From the NCBI GenBank assembly GCA_900322215.1, contig ONYW01000017.1, forward strand, positions 1-32,175: a stretch of DNA of 32,175 nt. Reading direction: 5' to 3'. The stretch's first letter is position 1. The number at the start of each line of letters is the position of its first letter. Positions 2,675 to 14,463 of this stretch are shown one piece after another. Source of the stretch: an uncultured Eubacteriales bacterium. GTDB taxonomy: Bacteria; Bacillota; Clostridia; Christensenellales; CAG-917. The notes under the pieces are model-generated. The model had not been told where the DNA came from, searched no databases, and was given only the letters and a program-made list of their open reading frames with translations. A program made the translations under genes and the position numbers.

Positions 2675-3889
2675 ATGCAAACAGTTGAAGTGACGACGCC
2701 TTGCGGAAAGGTGATCGGAGAAAAAACAGAGTATGGCGCGCGCTTTCAAGGCGTAAGATACGCGACTGCAAAACGCTTTGAAAAGCCTGTCGAAATCACG
2801 CACTATGACGCTGTGCAGGACGCAACGAAACAGGGCGTATGCTGTCCGCAAATGCGCGCTTATTGGAATGAGGAGCATCGCTTCTATTATCAAGAACTTC
2901 GCAAAGGACAGACCTTTACGTACAGCGAAGACTGCCAAATCCTCAACATCTTTACTCCCGACAACGCCAAAGACTGTCCCGTCATCGTCTATATTCACGG
3001 CGGAAGTTTTACGGGCGGCAGCATAAACGAAAAGCACTTTGACGGCTGGCAGTATACAAAGCGCGGAGTGATTTTTGTCGCAGTGAATTACCGCCTCAAT
3101 ATCTTCGGTTCGTTTGTGGACGGAGTGCATTCAAACGGCAATTTGCACCTCTTCGATCAATATACGGCTATCGAGTGGGTTAGACACAACATTTCTGCGT
3201 TTGGCGGTGATCCGAACAGTATTATTCTTATGGGACAGAGCGCGGGCGCGATGAGCGTGCAGACTCTCATTTGCACGGACGCATTAAAAGGCAAAGTCAA
3301 AGGCGCCGTTATGTTCTCGGGCGGTGGAAAACGAGTCGGTCTTCTTCCGATTTCAAAACCGAACAAGAGGTACTGGGCAAAACTCGTCAAAGAGTGCGGT
3401 GCAAAGACGTTTGAAGAGGCGCAGGCAATACCCGCCGAACAACTTTGGACCGTATGGAAGCAAAAACACCTCTTCGGAAAGGCTATGGAGACAAAAATCG
3501 TCCTTGACGGCGAACTCGTCAAAGACAAAAAGTACAACACCGACATTCCCGTAATCTTCGGCGTGGACAAAAAGGATCTTATGCCTCCGCTCCTCAACCA
3601 CATGGCGCAGGCGTTCGCAAGAAAGCAGAGGAGAAAGGGATGCAAGGCGTATATCTTCCACTTTGACAGACTTTTGCCACCCGACGGAGCGTCTTTCCAT
3701 GCCTGTGAACTTTGGTACGCGCTTGGGAGCCTCGCAAATTCTGAACGTCCGTTTGAATCTCACGACTATGAGATAGCGGACGATATGATGGACAGATTTT
3801 CCGCTTTTGTACGCACAGGCTCTCCAAACGTAAACGCTGAAGACTGGCACCCGTATCACAGTAAAAAAGATATAAAAGTGTGGGAATAA
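2675..3889 (+). CDS. Type-B carboxylesterase family protein
   Basis: A 404-residue alpha/beta hydrolase of the carboxylesterase/para-nitrobenzyl esterase family. Oxyanion-hole motif is IHGGSFTGGS, the nucleophile elbow is GQSAGAMSV with Ser189, the probable acid is an Asp in the VDKKD segment, and the catalytic His lies in a HACELWY motif corresponding to the family's HAxEL. Typical members run 480-520 residues, so this one is short, mainly after the nucleophile region, but all catalytic elements are visible. No signal peptide, so it is cytoplasmic. The start is set by AGAGGGA just upstream. It lies 34 nt downstream of the oxidoreductase and may deacylate sugar-linked esters; that role is inferred from context. 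Confidence 0.87.
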   Translation: MQTVEVTTPCGKVIGEKTEYGARFQGVRYATAKRFEKPVEITHYDAVQDATKQGVCCPQMRAYWNEEHRFYYQELRKGQTFTYSEDCQILNIFTPDNAKDCPVIVYIHGGSFTGGSINEKHFDGWQYTKRGVIFVAVNYRLNIFGSFVDGVHSNGNLHLFDQYTAIEWVRHNISAFGGDPNSIILMGQSAGAMSVQTLICTDALKGKVKGAVMFSGGGKRVGLLPISKPNKRYWAKLVKECGAKTFEEAQAIPAEQLWTVWKQKHLFGKAMETKIVLDGELVKDKKYNTDIPVIFGVDKKDLMPPLLNHMAQAFARKQRRKGCKAYIFHFDRLLPPDGASFHACELWYALGSLANSERPFESHDYEIADDMMDRFSAFVRTGSPNVNAEDWHPYHSKKDIKVWE

Positions 3890-3916
3890 CATACAAAGTT
3901 TATAATTAAATTCCTA

Positions 3917-3940
3917 CCAAAATACTTTTTGTATTTTTGG
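3917..3940 (+). terminator. Weak stem-loop after the esterase gene
   Basis: CCAAAATAC (3917-3925) pairs with GTATTTTTGG (3931-3940) with one bulge and a T5 loop. No clear T-run follows the stem, so factor-independent termination is doubtful; it separates the sugar cluster from the tRNA promoter. Confidence 0.3.
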
Positions 3941-3962
3941 CGAAAAGAATTGACAAAACTAC

Positions 3963-3991
3963 TTGTCAAAACGAGGAGTTTAATATATAAT
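3963..3991 (+). promoter_or_regulatory. Sigma70-type promoter for the tRNA-like array and tRNA-Ser
   Basis: A -35 TTGTCA (3963-3968), a 17-bp spacer and a perfect -10 TATAAT (3986-3991) predict a start near 3998-4000. The TTGACA at 3950-3955 overlaps as part of an inverted TTGACA/TTGTCA pair and is at the wrong distance for this -10. No other good promoter lies before the tRNA, so leader, hairpin units and tRNA are probably one primary transcript. Confidence 0.72.
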
Positions 3992-4006
3992 CATTTGCGT
4001 TGGGTT

Positions 4007-4083
4007 ATAAGGAGAAGATGTTCTCCCTGAACAGTTGGAGGCGATGGTTTTGTTTTCCATCCACTTCCAACTGCCACCCTTAT
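4007..4083 (+). ncRNA. Structured 5' leader of the tRNA-Ser transcript
   Basis: Directly after the predicted transcription start, GGAGAA (4011-4016) pairs with TTCTCC (4021-4026) around a GATG loop. A second, two-tier hairpin follows: AGTTGGA (4033-4039) with TCCAACT (4066-4072), and inside it GATGG (4043-4047) with CCATC (4057-4061). ATAAGG (4007-4012) can instead pair with CCTTAT (4078-4083), which is exclusive with the first hairpin, so two alternative folds exist. The second hairpin has the same outer-stem/inner-stem plan as the downstream units but unrelated sequence. No known RNA family recognised. Confidence 0.45.
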
Positions 4084-4115
4084 TGAAAATGAACTACAAC
4101 TTAATATAATTCTTT

Positions 4116-4314
4116 GGAGAAGTCGCGTATATGGTATTTATACCAAACACGCTCTATCTCCCGAAACTTAATATTTTATTTGGAGAAGTCGCAATTATGG
4201 TACTGCGTTCCAAACTGCTCCTTCTCCCAACAATTTAATAATTCTTTGGAGAAGTCGCCTAGTTTGGTACTGCGTTCCAAACTGCTCCTTCTCCCAACAA
4301 TTTAATAATTCTTT
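4116..4314 (+). repeat. Three tandem 66-67-bp tRNA-Ser-like hairpin units
   Basis: Units begin at 4116, 4182 and 4248; the true tRNA begins 67 bp later at 4315. Each starts GGAGAAGTCGC like the tRNA. The third is identical to the tRNA for its first 21 bases, then diverges and ends CTTCTCC (4288-4294), rebuilding the acceptor helix. Between these strands AGTTTGG (4261-4267) pairs with CCAAACT (4277-4283). In the first unit both the outer stem (GGAGA/TCTCC, 4116-4120 with 4157-4161) and the inner stems (GCGT/ACGC, TGGTA/TACCA) are kept with different bases. The second unit keeps the outer stem but a weakened inner one. No anticodon arm, T arm or CCA is present. Units are joined by an AT-rich linker ending TTCTTT or similar. 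Confidence 0.75.
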
Positions 4315-4407
4315 GGAGAAGTCGCCTAGTTTGGTCGAGGGCGCGCGACTGGAAATCGCGTAACCGTCAAAAGCGGTTCAAGAGTTCGAATCTCTTCTTC
4401 TCCGCCA
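4315..4407 (+). tRNA. tRNA-Ser (anticodon GGA), CCA encoded
   Basis: Acceptor GGAGAAG (4315-4321) pairs with CTTCTCC (4397-4403), discriminator G4404, CCA 4405-4407. The D-loop contains TAGTTTGGT. The anticodon stem CGCGA/TCGCG encloses loop CTGGAAA with GGA at 4351-4353. A long class II variable arm (AACCG/CGGTT) and T arm AAGAG-TTCGAAT-CTCTT follow. It reads UCC/UCU serine codons. It is the attachment site of the island downstream. Confidence 0.97.
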
Positions 4408-4416
4408 AAGAAAAGC
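4400..4416 (+). repeat. Left att-like direct repeat (within tRNA-Ser 3' end)
   Basis: Identical over 17 bp to 8816-8832. Contains the last four paired acceptor bases, the discriminator, CCA and nine flanking bases, so integration leaves the tRNA intact. Confidence 0.8.
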
Positions 4417-4438
4417 ACTCGAAAAGAGTGCTTTTTTT
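4411..4438 (+). terminator. Rho-independent terminator of tRNA-Ser
   Basis: AAAAGCACTC (4411-4420) pairs with GAGTGCTTTT (4426-4435), loop GAAAA, running into a T7 tract. The stem core is almost the same as the terminator at 10170-10196. Confidence 0.9.
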
Positions 4439-4440
4439 GA

Positions 4441-4507
4441 TGCGGAGAAAGTGAAGAGATTCCCCACAATAAATTGTGGGCACACTTCGTGTGCGAACGC
4501 GAACTCT
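4441..4507 (-). repeat. Inverted, interrupted copy of the tRNA-Ser 3' end
   Basis: In reverse orientation to the tRNA, CGGAGAA (4443-4449), GAAGAGATTC (4453-4462) and CGAACTCT (4500-4507) match the complement of the tRNA acceptor 3' strand and T arm in order. The copy is split inside the T loop by about 37 bp made of two perfect hairpins: CCCACAAT/ATTGTGGG (4463-4480) and CACAC/GTGTG (4481-4493). It cannot make a tRNA. It is probably debris of an earlier insertion at the same site. Confidence 0.55.
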
Positions 4508-4687: not shown

Positions 4688-5755
4688 ATGTTAAGTTTTA
4701 TTTCTGCAAAAGAAGCTGCTGAAAAATGGGATATATCTCAAAGGCGCGTGGCTGTTTTATGTTCTGAAAATCGTATAAATGGAGCAATGATGGTTGGCAA
4801 TATGTGGATTATTCCAAGTAATGCGACTAAGCCAATTGATAAGCGTACGATAAGATATGAGAAACAAAAAAATATTGTCTTGAAACCATTTGTAAAGTGG
4901 GTTGGCGGCAAAGGTCAATTGGTTGATCAACTCGAAAAAATGTTCCCCGCAAACGGCGAAAGAGTTTTGACAAAATACGCAGAGCCAATGGTTGGCGGAG
5001 GCGCATTATTTTTTAATGTGCTGTCAAAGTATGATTTTGATGAGTTTTATATCGGAGATATAAACCCCGAACTTATTAATGCCTATCAAGTTATTAAAAA
5101 CGATGTTGATAATTTGATTTCAAAGCTTAATGAAATGCAAATAACATTTTTGCCAATGGATGAAAACGGCAGAAAGTATTATTATTACAGCATACGTGAA
5201 AGATTTAATAATACGGGCTTATCTAACGAAACCGCGACAGAAAAAGCTTCTCAATTTATTTTCTTAAATAAAACTTGTTTTAATGGTCTTTATCGTGTTA
5301 ATAGAAAAGGACAATTTAATGTTCCTATGGGCGCATACAAGAATCCGACAATTTGTGATGAGGAAAATTTGCTCAATATTCATGACGCTTTACAAAATGT
5401 AACAATTGTATGTGGTGATTATTCGTTGTCAAAGTCGTTTATAGATAACGAAACATTTGTTTATCTTGATCCACCGTATCGTCCTATTTCGGAAACTTCT
5501 GGATTTACAGCATACAATACTGATACATTTGATGATAACGAACAAAGGCGTCTTGCACAATTTATTGATGAAATAAATAAAAGTGGTGCAAAAATTGTTT
5601 TGAGCAACTCCGATCCGAAGAACATCAACGAAGAAGACAATTTCTTTGATGATTTATATAAGGATTATACTATTAACCGTGTTGAAGCAACTAGAATGAT
5701 AAATAGCAACGCAGAAAAGCGTGGGAAAATCAATGAATTACTTATTCACAATTAA
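4688..5755 (+). CDS. HTH-fused D12-class (Dam-like) DNA adenine N6-methyltransferase
   Basis: A 355-residue protein. Residues 1 to about 60 form an excisionase/MerR-like helix-turn-helix of the type seen in small clostridial regulators (FISAKEAAEKW, ISQRRVAVLC, then a basic wing with a MWIIP strand). From residue 66 on it is a class D12 alpha-type adenine methyltransferase: the SAM-binding segment FVKWVGGKGQL near 68-78 and the catalytic DPPY at 261-264. Family members methylate the adenine of short sites such as GATC. As first gene of the operon it would protect host DNA, and the HTH may let it control its own promoter at 4634-4662, as several type II methyltransferases with N-terminal HTH domains do. 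Recognition site not predictable here. Confidence 0.9.
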   Translation: MLSFISAKEAAEKWDISQRRVAVLCSENRINGAMMVGNMWIIPSNATKPIDKRTIRYEKQKNIVLKPFVKWVGGKGQLVDQLEKMFPANGERVLTKYAEPMVGGGALFFNVLSKYDFDEFYIGDINPELINAYQVIKNDVDNLISKLNEMQITFLPMDENGRKYYYYSIRERFNNTGLSNETATEKASQFIFLNKTCFNGLYRVNRKGQFNVPMGAYKNPTICDEENLLNIHDALQNVTIVCGDYSLSKSFIDNETFVYLDPPYRPISETSGFTAYNTDTFDDNEQRRLAQFIDEINKSGAKIVLSNSDPKNINEEDNFFDDLYKDYTINRVEATRMINSNAEKRGKINELLIHN

Positions 5756-5769
5756 AGGAGACGATACAG

Positions 5770-6309
5770 ATGATAAAAAGTGGGAAAGGTGGCGGAAATA
5801 CTCGTACAGGTTTAGTCTTTGAAGGCAAAACAGATTTGTCAACATTTTTAGGGCAACAACCACATTACAGAGTTGTAGAACATGATGTTTTTTATAACGA
5901 TGAGAAGGTCGCGGAAGTATATAAAAAGCATAATTTTTACTCCATATTTTTGAACAAATTAGGTATTGACTGGGCACAATATATATCTAAAAAACTTTTG
6001 CCTGATGATAGCATTTTTGTTTTGCTCAATAATGTATTGTTTATTATTGAATGCAAGCATCAAGAAGTTGCAGGCTCGGTCGATGAAAAACTACAAACAT
6101 GCGACTTTAAGAAAAAACAATATAAAAAGTTGATGGCTCCTGCAAACATTGATGTTGAATACATCTATTTGTTGGATGAATGGTTTAGAGATCCAAAATA
6201 TAAAGATGTATTGGATTATATACATTCCGTCGACTGTGACTATTATTTTGAGTATATTCCGCTTGTGCGTCTTGGACTTCCTGTTCCGCCTGAACTTATA
6301 GAAGACTGA
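5770..6309 (+). CDS. Probable PD-(D/E)XK restriction endonuclease
   Basis: A 179-residue protein between two DNA methyltransferase genes. The nuclease signature reads P78-D79-D80, then Glu94-Cys-Lys96 (FIIECKHQ) on a hydrophobic strand, i.e. PD..ExK with the usual spacing. A short downstream helix segment (VDEKLQTC, DFKKKQY) is typical of type II enzymes, and the N-terminus has a GGGNTRTGLVFE segment that may supply another acidic residue. SD AAAGGAG sits before the ATG; 14 nt separate it from the methylase and 1 nt from the next gene. Its role as cognate nuclease of the neighbouring methylases is inferred from order and motif. Family name and target sequence not recognised; it is shorter than DpnII (about 290 residues). 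Confidence 0.72.
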   Translation: MIKSGKGGGNTRTGLVFEGKTDLSTFLGQQPHYRVVEHDVFYNDEKVAEVYKKHNFYSIFLNKLGIDWAQYISKKLLPDDSIFVLLNNVLFIIECKHQEVAGSVDEKLQTCDFKKKQYKKLMAPANIDVEYIYLLDEWFRDPKYKDVLDYIHSVDCDYYFEYIPLVRLGLPVPPELIED

Positions 6310-6310
6310 T

Positions 6311-7051
6311 ATGGCAAAGAAGATTCCTCTACAACCTGAAAATTTCGAACTCGAGACGAACACCGTTTGGGCATTTCCCGACCGCGGTAAATGGGCGACT
6401 CACGATGCTAAATATCGTGGCAATTGGTCTCCGTATATTCCGCGCAACTTAATATTGCGTTATTCGGCTGAAGGAGATACGGTTTTAGATCAGTTTGTCG
6501 GTGGTGGCACTACTGCAGTTGAGGCAAAGCTCACAAATCGAAATTTTATCGGGATTGACATAAATCCAAATGCGCTTGAAATTACAAAAAGCAAGTTGGA
6601 TTTTGAGTGTGAATTTAACCCGACGATTGATATAATACAAGGCGATGCGCGTAATCTTTCACCAATTGCCGATAAGTCAATAGATTTAATTTGTACGCAC
6701 CCACCTTATGCCGATATAATTCATTATAGTGAAGATATAGACGGTGATATGTCACTTATGCCGATGAAAGATTTTTTATTTGAAATCGGCAAAGTCGCAG
6801 AAGAATGCTATCGGGTATTGAAAAAGGACAAGTTTTGCGCTATACTTATGGGAGATATGCGCAAAAAAGGTATGGTCCAACCACTTGCTTTTGAAACGAT
6901 GCGTATTTTTGAAATGGCAGGATTCAAAACGAAAGAAATTATAATCAAGGAACAACACAACTGCAAAGCCACGGGCTATTGGAAAACAAACAGCATAAAG
7001 TTTAATTTTCTTTTACTCGCCCACGAGTATTTGTTTGTGTTTAAGAAATAA
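6311..7051 (+). CDS. Second DNA methyltransferase (N6-adenine/N4-cytosine type)
   Basis: A 246-residue SAM-dependent DNA methyltransferase. Motif I is VLDQFVGGGTTAVEA near residues 58-72, followed by an acidic strand FIGIDINP. The catalytic motif IV is THPPY near 137, a variant of the (D/N/S)PPY tetrad with His in the first position. Motif I precedes motif IV, unlike the beta-class order of DpnA. The C-terminal third (ECYRVLKKDKFCAILMGDMRK) matches the N6_N4_Mtase fold. It starts 1 nt after the nuclease stop and is presumably co-translated. Two different methylases flanking one nuclease recall DpnII/MboI-type systems, where the second enzyme guards single-stranded or hemimodified DNA; that role is inference. 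Confidence 0.85.
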   Translation: MAKKIPLQPENFELETNTVWAFPDRGKWATHDAKYRGNWSPYIPRNLILRYSAEGDTVLDQFVGGGTTAVEAKLTNRNFIGIDINPNALEITKSKLDFECEFNPTIDIIQGDARNLSPIADKSIDLICTHPPYADIIHYSEDIDGDMSLMPMKDFLFEIGKVAEECYRVLKKDKFCAILMGDMRKKGMVQPLAFETMRIFEMAGFKTKEIIIKEQHNCKATGYWKTNSIKFNFLLLAHEYLFVFKK

Positions 7052-7066
7052 CAAAAGGAGATAATT

Positions 7067-8794
7067 ATGGAACTTAATGCATTTCCAAAAAGCATAGAAG
7101 ATACTCTGAGATTGCAAAGAGAATATATTATTCCGAGATTTCAAAGGGAGTATTCTTGGGAAAGTGAAGAATTATCTGAATTGTTTGAAGACCTACTCGA
7201 CAATATTCATTTGGACAGTAATGGTGTGCTGCAGCCGACTGAATACTTTATAGGCTCATTAGTCTTGGTGGGAGACGAAGACAATACCACAGATATAAAA
7301 CGTTATGTTGTAGATGGTCAACAACGCCTTACAACTATTACTATACTTTTTTCCGTGATTGCTAGAAAATTTAAAGAATTAGGTGAAGACAAGCTTTTTG
7401 AAAAAACGCATTCATACATAATTGGTGAGGATGATGATGGTATGCCATACTCTAAATTGATTAATGAAATGGCAAAACCATATTTTCAAACGCGAATTCA
7501 ACAAAAGGAAATTGATTTCTCAGCAACACCAAAAACGCAAGAAGATAAAAGAATTCTGTTTGCTTACAACTACTTCGATAGGCAATTAAAAGAAACATTA
7601 TTAATTAAAAGCATTAGGGAAAGAAATCCTTCGGTAGCGGAATATGATTATGTGACTTTATTAAAATTAATAAAAGAGCAAGTTTTAAAATGCAAAGTTA
7701 TCTATGTAACAGTGAAATCGTTAGATGATGCTTATGAGATTTTTGAAGTATTAAATGCTAAAGGAAAAGATTTGGAACCCGTCGATATGATTAAAAATAC
7801 CATATTTAGTGTTGTAAACGAACAAACTCCACTTGATAACGCATTAGAGTTATGGACTGGAATTAAAAACTCGATTTCTGTTTTGGATAATTGCGATTTT
7901 TCTTCTGCATATAGACATTATTGGCTTTCTAAGTATTGCTTATCGACATCAAAAAAACTAGTATCAAATTTTAACAAGTATATAAAAAAAGACAAGGGAA
8001 CTTATTTGAGTTTTTTAGACGATTTAAAAACTAATATGAAAAACTATGTCTCAATTGCACACGTGGATGAAAAAGAATGGCAACAACCAGAGGATCTCGC
8101 TTTATATACTAGTTTGAATGCCTTAAATACATTCAATGTAACACAAACAAGAGTTTTTTTGTTGGCGTTGTTTGATGTGAAAAATAGAAATATAATATCT
8201 CATAAGAATTTCAAGAAAATACTTTTGTTTTTAGAGCATTATCATTTTATATTTACCGCAGTTTGTTCTTGTCGTCCATCAGGGCTTGAAAGGAGGTATT
8301 CTTCCTATGCAAGAAACTTAAGAAATTGTTCTTCAAAAGAAGAAACAGCAAGGGAAATAAATAATTTAATCGTTGACATGTCATTGCCAGATTATAATGT
8401 GTTTGAAACTCATTTTTTGGAACTCAGATTCTGTTCTTCACAGGAAAAAGATAAAAAGCTAATACAATATATTATGAGGAAAGTCGAACGATACTATTCA
8501 GGTGAAGAGCTTAAACCTAATTCGTTCACAATTGAACATATCCTTCCTGAATCGACACAGGCTGATTATGTTGGAATGGTTGGGAATTTATTACCTCTTG
8601 GCGCAAAGCTTAATGAAAAATTAGCAGATAAGGCATTTTCGGATAAATTAAGTGGGTATAAGCAATCGCAATATACCACAGTAAAAGAATTTATTGAAGA
8701 ATTTAAGGAGTGTTCTATATGGGATGAATCATCAATAATTAGCAGAACGAAAGAATTGGCCAACTTGTTGTATGATAATATTATTGAAGGGTAA
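7067..8794 (+). CDS. DUF262/DUF1524 (GmrSD-type) modification-dependent restriction protein
   Basis: A 575-residue protein with two recognisable halves. The N-terminal DUF262 (ParB/GmrS-like NTPase) shows IPRFQREYSW at 22-31 and the DGQQRLTT motif at 83-90, followed by the conserved FEVLNAKGKDLEPVDMIK segment. The C-terminal DUF1524 HNH nuclease has IEHILPE with His491, then GNLLPLGAKLNEKLADKAF. This architecture is that of GmrSD, BrxU and SspE-like enzymes, which hydrolyse NTP and cut or nick DNA bearing (or lacking) particular modifications. SD AAAGGAG lies before the ATG, 15 nt after the methylase, so it is the last gene of the operon. The modification sensed cannot be read from sequence. 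Confidence 0.9.
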   Translation: MELNAFPKSIEDTLRLQREYIIPRFQREYSWESEELSELFEDLLDNIHLDSNGVLQPTEYFIGSLVLVGDEDNTTDIKRYVVDGQQRLTTITILFSVIARKFKELGEDKLFEKTHSYIIGEDDDGMPYSKLINEMAKPYFQTRIQQKEIDFSATPKTQEDKRILFAYNYFDRQLKETLLIKSIRERNPSVAEYDYVTLLKLIKEQVLKCKVIYVTVKSLDDAYEIFEVLNAKGKDLEPVDMIKNTIFSVVNEQTPLDNALELWTGIKNSISVLDNCDFSSAYRHYWLSKYCLSTSKKLVSNFNKYIKKDKGTYLSFLDDLKTNMKNYVSIAHVDEKEWQQPEDLALYTSLNALNTFNVTQTRVFLLALFDVKNRNIISHKNFKKILLFLEHYHFIFTAVCSCRPSGLERRYSSYARNLRNCSSKEETAREINNLIVDMSLPDYNVFETHFLELRFCSSQEKDKKLIQYIMRKVERYYSGEELKPNSFTIEHILPESTQADYVGMVGNLLPLGAKLNEKLADKAFSDKLSGYKQSQYTTVKEFIEEFKECSIWDESSIISRTKELANLLYDNIIEG

Positions 8795-12897: not shown

Positions 12898-14463
12898 TTA
12901 CCAAAGGTCGTCGTTTCTGACGATGTCGGCATTTGAAGACGCACGTGCGATTGCATCGATGCCTTTCTTTGCCGCGTCCTTGGAGAGGTAGCCATCGTTT
13001 GTTGTTGCGACGATGTTGCCGTTGGATGCGATGAGTCTCAAGCGATATTCGCCTTTCTTGTCAAGGAAGATAACCCACTTCGGGCACTTTTGCTCGACCG
13101 GTTTTTGAAGTGTTTGGTCTTCGATAGGGCATGTGCCGGAGTTTTTGATAACGCTTTGAATACCCGTCTTGCAGCTTGTGAGTGCAGGGTATGGTTGAGC
13201 ACCGATTGCAATAACTCTCTTGTTGGATGAGAAGAGTTTGTAGACATAGTTGCCGTTGTCAGTAACTTTGATAACAAACTTTGCGCGAGTCTTTTGATCG
13301 CCTGTGCCTTCAACAAGGACTTTTTCTTGTGGCTTATCGTCTTTCTTTGGTGCCGGTTTTGCTTCTTTTGTTGCCATTTTCTTCTCCTCCGTAGCTTTTG
13401 TAGATTTATTTGTGCTTTCTTTTGTAGCCTTTGCCGGAGCCTTCTTTGGCTCTTCTTTCGGTTCTTCCGCCTTTGGAGCGACTTTCTTTGCAGGAGCTTT
13501 CTTTGCGGCAGGTTTAGCCTCTTCCTTTGCAGGTTCTGCTTTTGCAGCCGTCTTCTTTGGAGCAGCTTTCTTTGGCTCTTCCTTTGGTTCCTCTGCCTTT
13601 GGAGCAGCTTTCTTCGCAGGCGCTTTCTTTGGAGCAGGTTTTGCCTCTTCCTTTGGCTCTTCGGCTTTCTTTACGGATGCGACAGCCGCTACTTGCCATA
13701 CGTCGTCCTCTTTGACTTTCTTGGACTTGACGACTTTTGCAGGTTTCTCGTCCTTGACTTCAAAGTTGGAATCTGAAAGGGCAGAGTTCACGTTGTTACC
13801 GTCAAGACTGATAGACGTTGCGGAACGTTTCGGTGCCTTTGCAGGTGCCGCTTCTTCCTTCGGCTCGGCTGCTTTCTTTGCGCGTGGCTTCTTTTCAGGA
13901 ACAGGAGAAGGTTCTTCGACAGGTGCCTGTTCTTCTTCGACAGGTTCTTCTGAGGATTGTTCTTCTGCGGTGACTTCCTCTGTGACTGGCTCTTCAGCTT
14001 GCTCTTGTACAGGTTCCTCTTGAACCTCTTCCGCAGGCTCTTGAACGTCTTGCTCAGGTGCTTCTTGTGCTTCCTCAACAGGTTCGCCGGCTTGTTCGTC
14101 TTGAACAGGTTCTGCCTCTTCAACAGCTTGGACAGGTTCGTCGGTAGGAGCTTCCTCTTGTGACGGTTCCTCTTTATCAACAGGTTCTGTTGCAGGTTCC
14201 TCGGCATGAGCTTCCTCTGAGACCGACTCTTCCTCTGCAGGTTCTTCCGCTACAGGTTCTTCGACATGGGATTCTTCCGTTGCAGGTTCCGCCTCTTCGG
14301 CTTTTTCCTCTACAGGAGCTTCCTCGTTTTCCGCCTGTGCAGGCTCTGCGACTTCTTGAGGTTCGTCGTCAACGACGTGGACAAGAGTGCCGACGGGAGC
14401 GTCGTCATCGTCATCTTCAAGTTCTGCTTCCAAAAACACGATTTCGTCTTTCAATTCTTCCAT
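12898..14463 (-). CDS. Tandem DUF1508 (YegP-like) protein with a long disordered charged tail
   Basis: A 521-residue protein in three zones. Residues 1 to about 190 are very acidic, Glu/Pro/Val/Ala-rich. About 190-385 is Lys/Ala/Pro-rich with two imperfect ~40-residue repeats (KKAPAKKAAPKAEEPKEEPKK type), like H1-like or RNase E-like disordered regions. Residues 394-442 and 462-509 are two DUF1508/YegP domains: each has an FVIxxxxxGxYxxxL strand pair, xSNxxxIA, and an xxGIxxV helix. YegP domains are small, function poorly known, and often stress-induced. AAGGTGG SD precedes ATG 14463. A second, stronger SD sits inside the gene before Met363. Not a membrane protein; the tail may bind nucleic acid or protein, which is inference. 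Confidence 0.82.
   Translation of the reverse strand: MEELKDEIVFLEAELEDDDDDAPVGTLVHVVDDEPQEVAEPAQAENEEAPVEEKAEEAEPATEESHVEEPVAEEPAEEESVSEEAHAEEPATEPVDKEEPSQEEAPTDEPVQAVEEAEPVQDEQAGEPVEEAQEAPEQDVQEPAEEVQEEPVQEQAEEPVTEEVTAEEQSSEEPVEEEQAPVEEPSPVPEKKPRAKKAAEPKEEAAPAKAPKRSATSISLDGNNVNSALSDSNFEVKDEKPAKVVKSKKVKEDDVWQVAAVASVKKAEEPKEEAKPAPKKAPAKKAAPKAEEPKEEPKKAAPKKTAAKAEPAKEEAKPAAKKAPAKKVAPKAEEPKEEPKKAPAKATKESTNKSTKATEEKKMATKEAKPAPKKDDKPQEKVLVEGTGDQKTRAKFVIKVTDNGNYVYKLFSSNKRVIAIGAQPYPALTSCKTGIQSVIKNSGTCPIEDQTLQKPVEQKCPKWVIFLDKKGEYRLRLIASNGNIVATTNDGYLSKDAAKKGIDAIARASSNADIVRNDDLW
13375..13390 (-). promoter_or_regulatory. Internal Shine-Dalgarno and ATG inside the DUF1508 gene
   Basis: On the minus strand GGAGGAG (13390-13384) is followed by 6 nt and an in-frame ATG (13377-13375). 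Initiation there would give a 159-residue protein made only of a short basic lead and both DUF1508 domains. The codons spell Glu-Glu-Lys-Lys, so the match could arise from coding sequence alone. Confidence 0.45.

Follow-up and report, generated by a model that had tools for sequence, protein, structure and literature searches.

Tandem repeats that stand beside a tRNA gene and each carry a copy of its end are known from tyrT/tyrV of E. coli and the associated RtT RNA (RF00391). In our control run on this region the tyrV repeats appeared with a 178-bp period and 3.1 copies, the 3' end of the tRNA recurring as exact 19-nt copies 159, 337 and 515 nt after tyrV, and four RtT matches were found, three downstream and one between the two tRNAs. 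A part of a tRNA precursor other than the tRNA itself can also serve as a small RNA, as in 3'ETS-leuZ of E. coli, an external transcribed spacer that is reported to act as a sponge RNA (PMC8166272), and this provides a model for the leader described below. Conserved structured 5' leaders are present in Clostridia as T-boxes and other structured leaders, and short tandem palindromes are known as REP/BIME or MITE-like repeats. Nothing corresponding to the leader or the 5'-end palindromes of the present locus was recognised in a literature search that was weak on older and subscription papers.

The window, that is the whole stretch of DNA analysed, comprises 32,175 nucleotides of contig ONYW01000017.1 (assembly GCA_900322215.1) from an uncultured Eubacteriales bacterium. 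The features of the locus, with the evidence for each, are:

3963–3991, plus strand: promoter TTGTCA-17-TATAAT (promoter scan and conservation across 21 loci)
3999–4079, plus strand: predicted three-way-junction leader RNA, conserved (covariance model matches 3999–4086, folds, covariation)
4116–4181, plus strand: palindromic unit 1 (hairpin 4116–4161 and an AT-rich spacer)
4182–4247, plus strand: palindromic unit 2 (hairpin 4182–4227 and spacer)
4248–4314, plus strand: palindromic unit 3 (hairpin 4248–4294 and spacer)
4315–4407, plus strand: tRNA-Ser(GGA), the sole such gene found in the assembly
4408–4438, plus strand: terminator-like inverted repeat with a T run (inverted-repeat search)
4441–4463, minus strand: degenerate inverted copy of the tRNA-Ser 3' end, just past the terminator (limits set by eye)

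The promoter scan lists two sites near the leader of the window, with 1.3 expected by chance. The hexamers and spacing of the upstream site are identical in 20 of the 21 loci, the window included, the remaining locus having TTGATA-18-TATAAT, and the leader starts 6 or 7 nt past TATAAT in all 21; in the window transcription probably begins at 3999, after a 7-nt gap. The second promoter-like site (4083–4110) is at chance level and by eye not conserved, and was rejected. An earlier note on this DNA had placed the array and the tRNA behind one promoter, and with TTGTCA-17-TATAAT found and conserved it is probable that leader, units and tRNA-Ser(GGA) are co-transcribed. A single transcription unit would then give a composite precursor consisting of the leader, the palindrome array, tRNA-Ser(GGA) and the terminator. 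The consensus terminator scan lists nothing in 3880–4480, and it also misses the likely terminator at 4408–4438, probably because the T run sits within the stem. The inverted 3'-end copy at 4441–4463 scores 13.0, against 9.8 for the 99th percentile of other tRNAs.

A carboxylesterase gene is located upstream of the locus. Directly 3' of tRNA-Ser there is a restriction-modification cluster (4688–8794) with genes for a D12 methylase, a PDDEXK-like protein, an N6/N4 methylase and a GmrSD-type protein. Starting at about 14.6 kb, most genes are housekeeping genes. Comparison of 20 window ORFs with Pfam revealed no integrase. A 126-bp repeat with 1.8 copies (13438–13668) lies within a minus-strand ORF with DUF1508.

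The leader is predicted to form three helices, P1 (4002–4005 with 4076–4079), P2 (4011–4016 with 4021–4026) and P3 (4032–4073, with a 9-nt loop). In an alignment of 21 leaders, giving 20 distinct rows, P3 and the tip pair in 98–100% of the cells, and changes on both sides are found in six pairs, amounting to 30 cells against 8.0 ± 3.0 in shuffles and 0–5 in slid controls; this covariation above both types of control indicates that the leader is a structured noncoding RNA. P1 as modelled pairs in just 77% of the cells, the failures being partly due to a shifted register, and by eye 20 of the 21 leaders have it as GGGT/ACCC or as a shifted form. At the position of P2 all 21 are predicted to form a hairpin, the sequence of which is free, and the predicted fold deviates in one leader, L054 (both by eye). 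The leader had been described in the earlier note as carrying GGAGAA together with a double stem, outer and inner; the hairpin exists (GGAGAA/TTCTCC, 4011–4026), but it belongs to P2 of a separate conserved RNA, and among the 16 leaders of genus g1, which includes the window genome, this sequence is seen by eye only in the window and in its closest relative G004. The earlier note had merged leader and units: the leader is conserved separately, and is an RNA distinct from the palindromic units that occurs without them in genus g7.

At gathering scores the tRNA is the only Rfam match in the window, with none above threshold at the leader, and the sub-threshold matches obtained at permissive settings were, apart from the tRNA, judged to be chance; the locus scans gave no Rfam T-box match. 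A leader peptide was rejected by inspection: in P3 the ATG and CAACTG are 28, 30 or 31 nt apart, depending on the genome, and the ATG is missing from all five g7 leaders.

Covariance model R1, run on 44 genomes of the family, finds the leader in 21 of them, namely 16 of the 21 genomes of g1 and 5 of the 10 of g7. It lies upstream of tRNA-Ser(GGA) in all loci but one, whose contig ends within the array, and in all five g7 loci it is followed by tRNA-Ser with no units. In a sample of the order it is present in 19 of 397 genomes, of g1 and g7 only, and in a sample of the class in 1 of 391, the window's own, with 11 candidates scored per genome in both samples, so that distant forms may be missed. 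Among the 23 family genomes with no leader match, 18 have no match to tRNA-Ser(GGA) at E≤1e-12, the gene being either unassembled or, in other genera, too diverged; tRNA-Ser(GGA) is present without a leader in four, three from g8 with the tRNA 15–29 nt after the likely start and one from g3 with about 50 nt between them; and in G028 (g7) the tRNA-Ser match lacks the first 17 nt of the tRNA. In a search with a leader pattern, 6 of 26 matches in genome contigs were judged to be chance, as were those in 12 viral contigs (two close variants of one sequence), the latter having neither the 3' half of the leader nor the promoter. The named matching records come from uncultured Clostridia; Horse_feces and Water_buffalos_Reticulum are among the isolate names in their titles.

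When outgroups are added to the rpoB tree, g1, g7 and g8 group together (support 92/91) with an unresolved fork, and the leader may therefore have been gained within this group, or earlier with a loss in g8. This rooted tree has seven more genera of the family or order and long branches, G038, one of the ten genomes chosen, gave no rpoB, and of the two rpoB copies in G003 one was used. In the two related genera a leader of about 80 nt stands between promoter and tRNA, with a fold that appears to be held by selection, judging from the covariation. It would probably be freed by the RNase P cut at the 5' end of the tRNA, and might then function as a small RNA, bind a protein or have a stabilising effect. 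In G011 (L010:1400–2100) leader and tRNA-Ser lie 422 nt apart, and between them there are a terminator-like hairpin (by eye; not in the list of the terminator scan) and a weak promoter-like TTGCTA-17-TATTAT (three sites found, 1.3 expected), a single case that hints at the leader being an independent RNA gene there.

The units of the window begin at 4116, 4182 and 4248 and are 66, 66 and 67 bp long. TRF reports a single array (4106–4335, period 67, 3.5 copies), and the three tandem units with copies of the tRNA-Ser 5' end, as first described, hold in coordinates and sequence. Each unit opens with the first 11–21 nt of tRNA-Ser, and the first 21 nt of unit 3 are identical to tRNA-Ser(GGA). Compared with dinucleotide shuffles the folds have z-scores of -3.4, -3.0 and -4.5, with 1, 2 and 0 of 200 shuffles as good. 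Units 2 and 3 have a perfect outer GGAGAAG/CTTCTCC helix; unit 1, where the outer helix is bulged, does pair with different bases as had been noted, building its inner helices from GCGT/ACGC and TGGTA/TACCA. The array occupies one locus in the window genome (at E≤1, with three other matches of 16–25 nt), and with a single array in that genome the units are not a dispersed palindromic mobile repeat.

The origin of the 3' half was analysed in 15 distinct long units, leaving out 10 distinct short ones. Its reverse complement aligns with the tRNA-Ser 5' end in all 15 (0–17 of 1000 shuffles as good) and fits the tRNA D-loop more closely than the direct arm of the same unit in 13, equally well in one (G011) and worse in one, namely unit 3 of the window, the direct arm of which matches 21 nt of the tRNA exactly. 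The inverted 5' end also scores above the direct 3' end of the tRNA in 13 long units, from 19 vs 16 up to 33 vs 11, and the two tie at 25 vs 25 in window units 2 and 3. Compared with the 5' ends of other tRNAs the inverted copy reaches 33 vs 28 (tRNA-Pro) at best, but since D-loops are alike among tRNAs the rivals score close in some lineages (22 vs 21 in G004, 19–19 in G016), and in window unit 1 another tRNA outscores tRNA-Ser with 23 vs 21. The best reading of these alignments is that the unit is a palindrome, the 3' half of which would be the tRNA 5' end copied in inverted orientation, D-loop included. What the earlier note took for a rebuilt acceptor stem is better explained in this way, with the tie in window units 2 and 3.

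The units might also be trimmed tRNA-Ser pseudogenes, formed by internal deletion of a duplicated tRNA, as they retain the acceptor 5' strand, the linker and the start of the D-loop, and the CTTCTCC arm of the two tied units fits the tRNA 3' end equally well. However, the 13 other long units favour the inverted 5' end, a complement of the D-loop is not expected in an arm derived from the tRNA 3' end, and the units have no T arm or CCA; an anticodon or T arm followed by the 3' acceptor strand in tRNA order was not recognised in them. Lineages with CGACTTC arms largely refute this origin, which we regard as highly improbable. According to the palindrome reading, the units would have been born in one of the two genera by a fold-back (inverted) duplication of the first 22 or so nucleotides of the tRNA, and the array would have grown and shrunk by slippage or unequal exchange between identical GGAGAAGTC blocks.

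A DNA search of the 21 g1 genomes gave matches in 17, and the 16 loci holding the leader, which have a common layout, were compared. Complete units, seen in this one genus only, number 29 in 12 of the 16 loci (30 unit starts, one of them cut by a contig end), and none are present in G003, G013, G015 and G006. Array size varies from 0 to 5 units of several types, copy numbers that rest on draft metagenome assemblies, which may miscount repeats; in G008 and G014 a contig edge falls within or just past the array. The unit spacing ranges over 39–78 bp, with 43–44 (two genomes), 39–44 (G008), 52, 66–67, 72–73 and 72–78 bp, and three genomes have single units 52, 56 and 59 bp ahead of the tRNA. Two fold classes are seen, sometimes within a single genome: GGAGAAG/CTTCTCC, which has an internal loop, and GAAGTCG/CGACTTC, which may or may not be bulged. 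Unit types and spacing are clade-specific, and units are alike within a genome. In the rpoB trees, read by eye, units are found in every main clade of g1 but the early G006, which sits on a long branch, and they are missing at the scattered tips G003, G013 and G015, indicating that units were present early in the genus and then lost repeatedly, and that their loss is tolerated. A search of 397 genomes for a repeated-GGAGAAGTC pattern gave matches in nine, seven of them in the genus; a match in G289, where the repeat looks coding by eye, and an isolated one in G390 were rejected. The pattern covers spacings of 37–67 bp only, so that the 72–78-bp arrays of the genus were missed and similar arrays elsewhere would be as well.

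Among the 25 distinct units the z-scores of the folds lie between -1.7 and -5.5 when the hairpins are trimmed to their predicted ends before shuffling. The mean folding energy is -15.1 kcal/mol for a unit's own halves, -14.2 for halves from the same clade and -12.7 for halves from other clades. Permuting the halves gives -13.1 kcal/mol with 0 of 5000 permutations as good, a result inflated by the kinship of the units. For a given 5' half, 0–15 of the 24 3' halves taken from other units give a better fold, and the own half is best in just 2 of 25. The claim of selection on RNA fold stands as far as the maintained pairing is concerned, but because related units are non-independent and template-switch correction would mimic the result, selection on the pairing is likely, not proven. 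The earlier note had named a lack of paired-base covariation in homologues and units occurring only as degraded partial tRNA duplications as evidence that would tell against it; pairing is kept among homologous units, and the array is found at one locus in the window genome, unique among 37–39 tRNA genes.

For this last comparison, the RF00005 model gave 40 matches in the window genome, and 39 distinct genes were checked. Copies of the first 12 nt (at most one mismatch) within 600 nt upstream are found only at tRNA-Ser(GGA), and with neighbours masked (37 genes) tRNA-Ser(GGA) alone is clear, tRNA-Trp being marginal with 9.5 vs a threshold of 8.5. The tRNA's own 3' end is directly copied 131–191 nt downstream in 8 of the 37 genes, at a threshold of 10.0 that is the 99th percentile of other tRNAs' ends, for which the maximum is 22; these copies form a mirror image of the array and resemble the tyrT/RtT repeats of E. 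coli, where tyrV has the analogue. Inverted 3'-end copies are present at 7 of the 37 (99th-percentile threshold). The 3'-copy loci include L094, L099, L101, L118 and L122 and other tRNA loci of the window genome, and L050 in g7; several of them have a common inner GCTGACGC motif and a second terminator, and they resemble short elements with tRNA-derived ends (all by eye). In six of these loci scanned with Rfam there was no RtT match up to E=0.5. A Gut-1 RNA (RF01706; 51.7 bits, gathering score 50) is located at L118:1004–1074 on the minus strand, 3' of tRNA-Ala(GGC).

It is possible, if doubtful, that the array is a neutral repeat, that is, a template-switch palindrome spread by replication slippage, the pairing of which is kept by quasi-palindrome correction, with the leader alone being functional. 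Clade-specific spacing and unit types, the likeness of units within a genome, the unit-free loci and the 3'-end copies adjoining other tRNAs all agree with this, while the presence of units across the main clades of the genus, with a single exception, though the spacers have diverged, and the lack of a clear 5' array at any other of the 37–39 tRNA genes speak against it.

The effect of the units on the precursor was assessed by computing equilibrium folds for 8 of the 12 precursors with arrays and for four without units, a calculation that takes no account of co-transcriptional order, modification or tRNA tertiary structure. The predicted probability of the native acceptor stem is 0.357 in G000, 0.010 in G018, 0.872 in G010, 0.614 in G004, 0.689 in G016, 0.000 in G020, 0.022 in G005 and 0.005 in G019, and it rises to 0.89–0.99 in all eight when the units are deleted in silico. 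Three of the four unit-free precursors have 0.90–0.99, and G015, with leader and no units, has 0.05. Nucleotides 1–7 of the tRNA have a unit 3' part as their main partner in five of the eight precursors, with probabilities of 0.98 (G020), 0.79 (G019), 0.76 (G005), 0.58 (G018) and 0.48 (G000); in G004 and G010 the leader is their chief competitor. Shuffling the unit 3' parts lowers the acceptor probability in 22–29 of 30 trials in G000, G010, G004 and G016, and in just 3–17 of 30 in G018, G020, G005 and G019, and shuffling whole units also yields low values, with means of 0.20–0.58. In this model the units may insulate the acceptor stem in four of the eight genomes, the native stem being rare in the other four.

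The same calculations bear on the idea of a self-antisense attenuator, in which the unit 3' arms, complementary to the tRNA 5' end, would make the precursor switch between two folds, one with self-folded units and a folded tRNA, the other shifted in register so that unit arms would capture both acceptor strands and block RNase P, and array length would set the yield of tRNA-Ser. The pairing of unit 3' parts with nucleotides 1–7 in five precursors and the restored acceptor stem in all eight deletions would be expected from it, and a 5' leader that pairs with the 3' RCCA reportedly inhibits assembly of an RNase P complex (PMC9433436). Yet equilibrium folding neglects the order of transcription, modification and tertiary structure, whole-unit shuffles and the unit-free G015 give low values too, the leader and not the units is the main competitor in two genomes, and units are absent from 4 of 16 loci; we consider such a switch unlikely. 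Distinctly unlikely is a broader scheme in which a sensor-like leader together with variable antisense palindromes would form an adjustable brake on the maturation of tRNA-Ser(GGA) by alternative pairing; if it were true, repeat number would tune UCU/UCC decoding between species. The units have also been suggested to be decoys for RNase P or SerRS, or a source of unit-length small RNAs. The sequence spanning the RNase P cleavage site (T/GGAGAAG) does recur in each unit, and every unit has a stem resembling that of an acceptor, but T arm, RCCA end and long variable arm are lacking, and as SerRS reads the long variable arm of tRNA-Ser the SerRS version is weak; as a whole this role appears very unlikely.

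The account that we hold, with about even confidence, is that of a co-transcribed and functional leader RNA followed by units that are tolerated, self-folding repeats and maybe tune the pre-tRNA. The hairpin of the units would be kept since an extra tRNA 5' end left unpaired, or an antisense to it, would compete with the real acceptor stem. That the array, mainly a tolerated repeat, may in addition tune the folding or maturation of the pre-tRNA is the weakest step in this account.

Compared with REP/BIME or MITE-like repeats, the array differs in being found at a single locus and not dispersed. T-box leaders precede an mRNA, whereas the leader of the window precedes a tRNA gene and has no Rfam T-box match. 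3'ETS-leuZ is a 3' trailer, and the present element is a 5' leader; should it prove to be a genuine RNA, it would be a structured RNA not described before and linked to one tRNA in two genera of uncultured gut Clostridia. The natural series of 0 to 5 units, with several unit types, allows direct tests of effects on pre-tRNA folding and RNase P. The tyrT/tyrV repeats copy the 3' end of the tRNA, downstream and directly, and inverted copies were not seen there even with 5 mismatches allowed, whereas the array described here has the 5' end, upstream, in direct and inverted copies, with a spacing of 39–78 bp and behind a conserved leader. RtT was found in the E. coli control and is not among the matches up to E=5 for window positions 3960–4450. 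With 5'-end copies as opposed to tyrT-type 3'-end repeats, the array is placed beside that kind and not inside it, and shows a tRNA end copied forward and backward beside its gene, as a mirror of the E. coli tyrT repeats.
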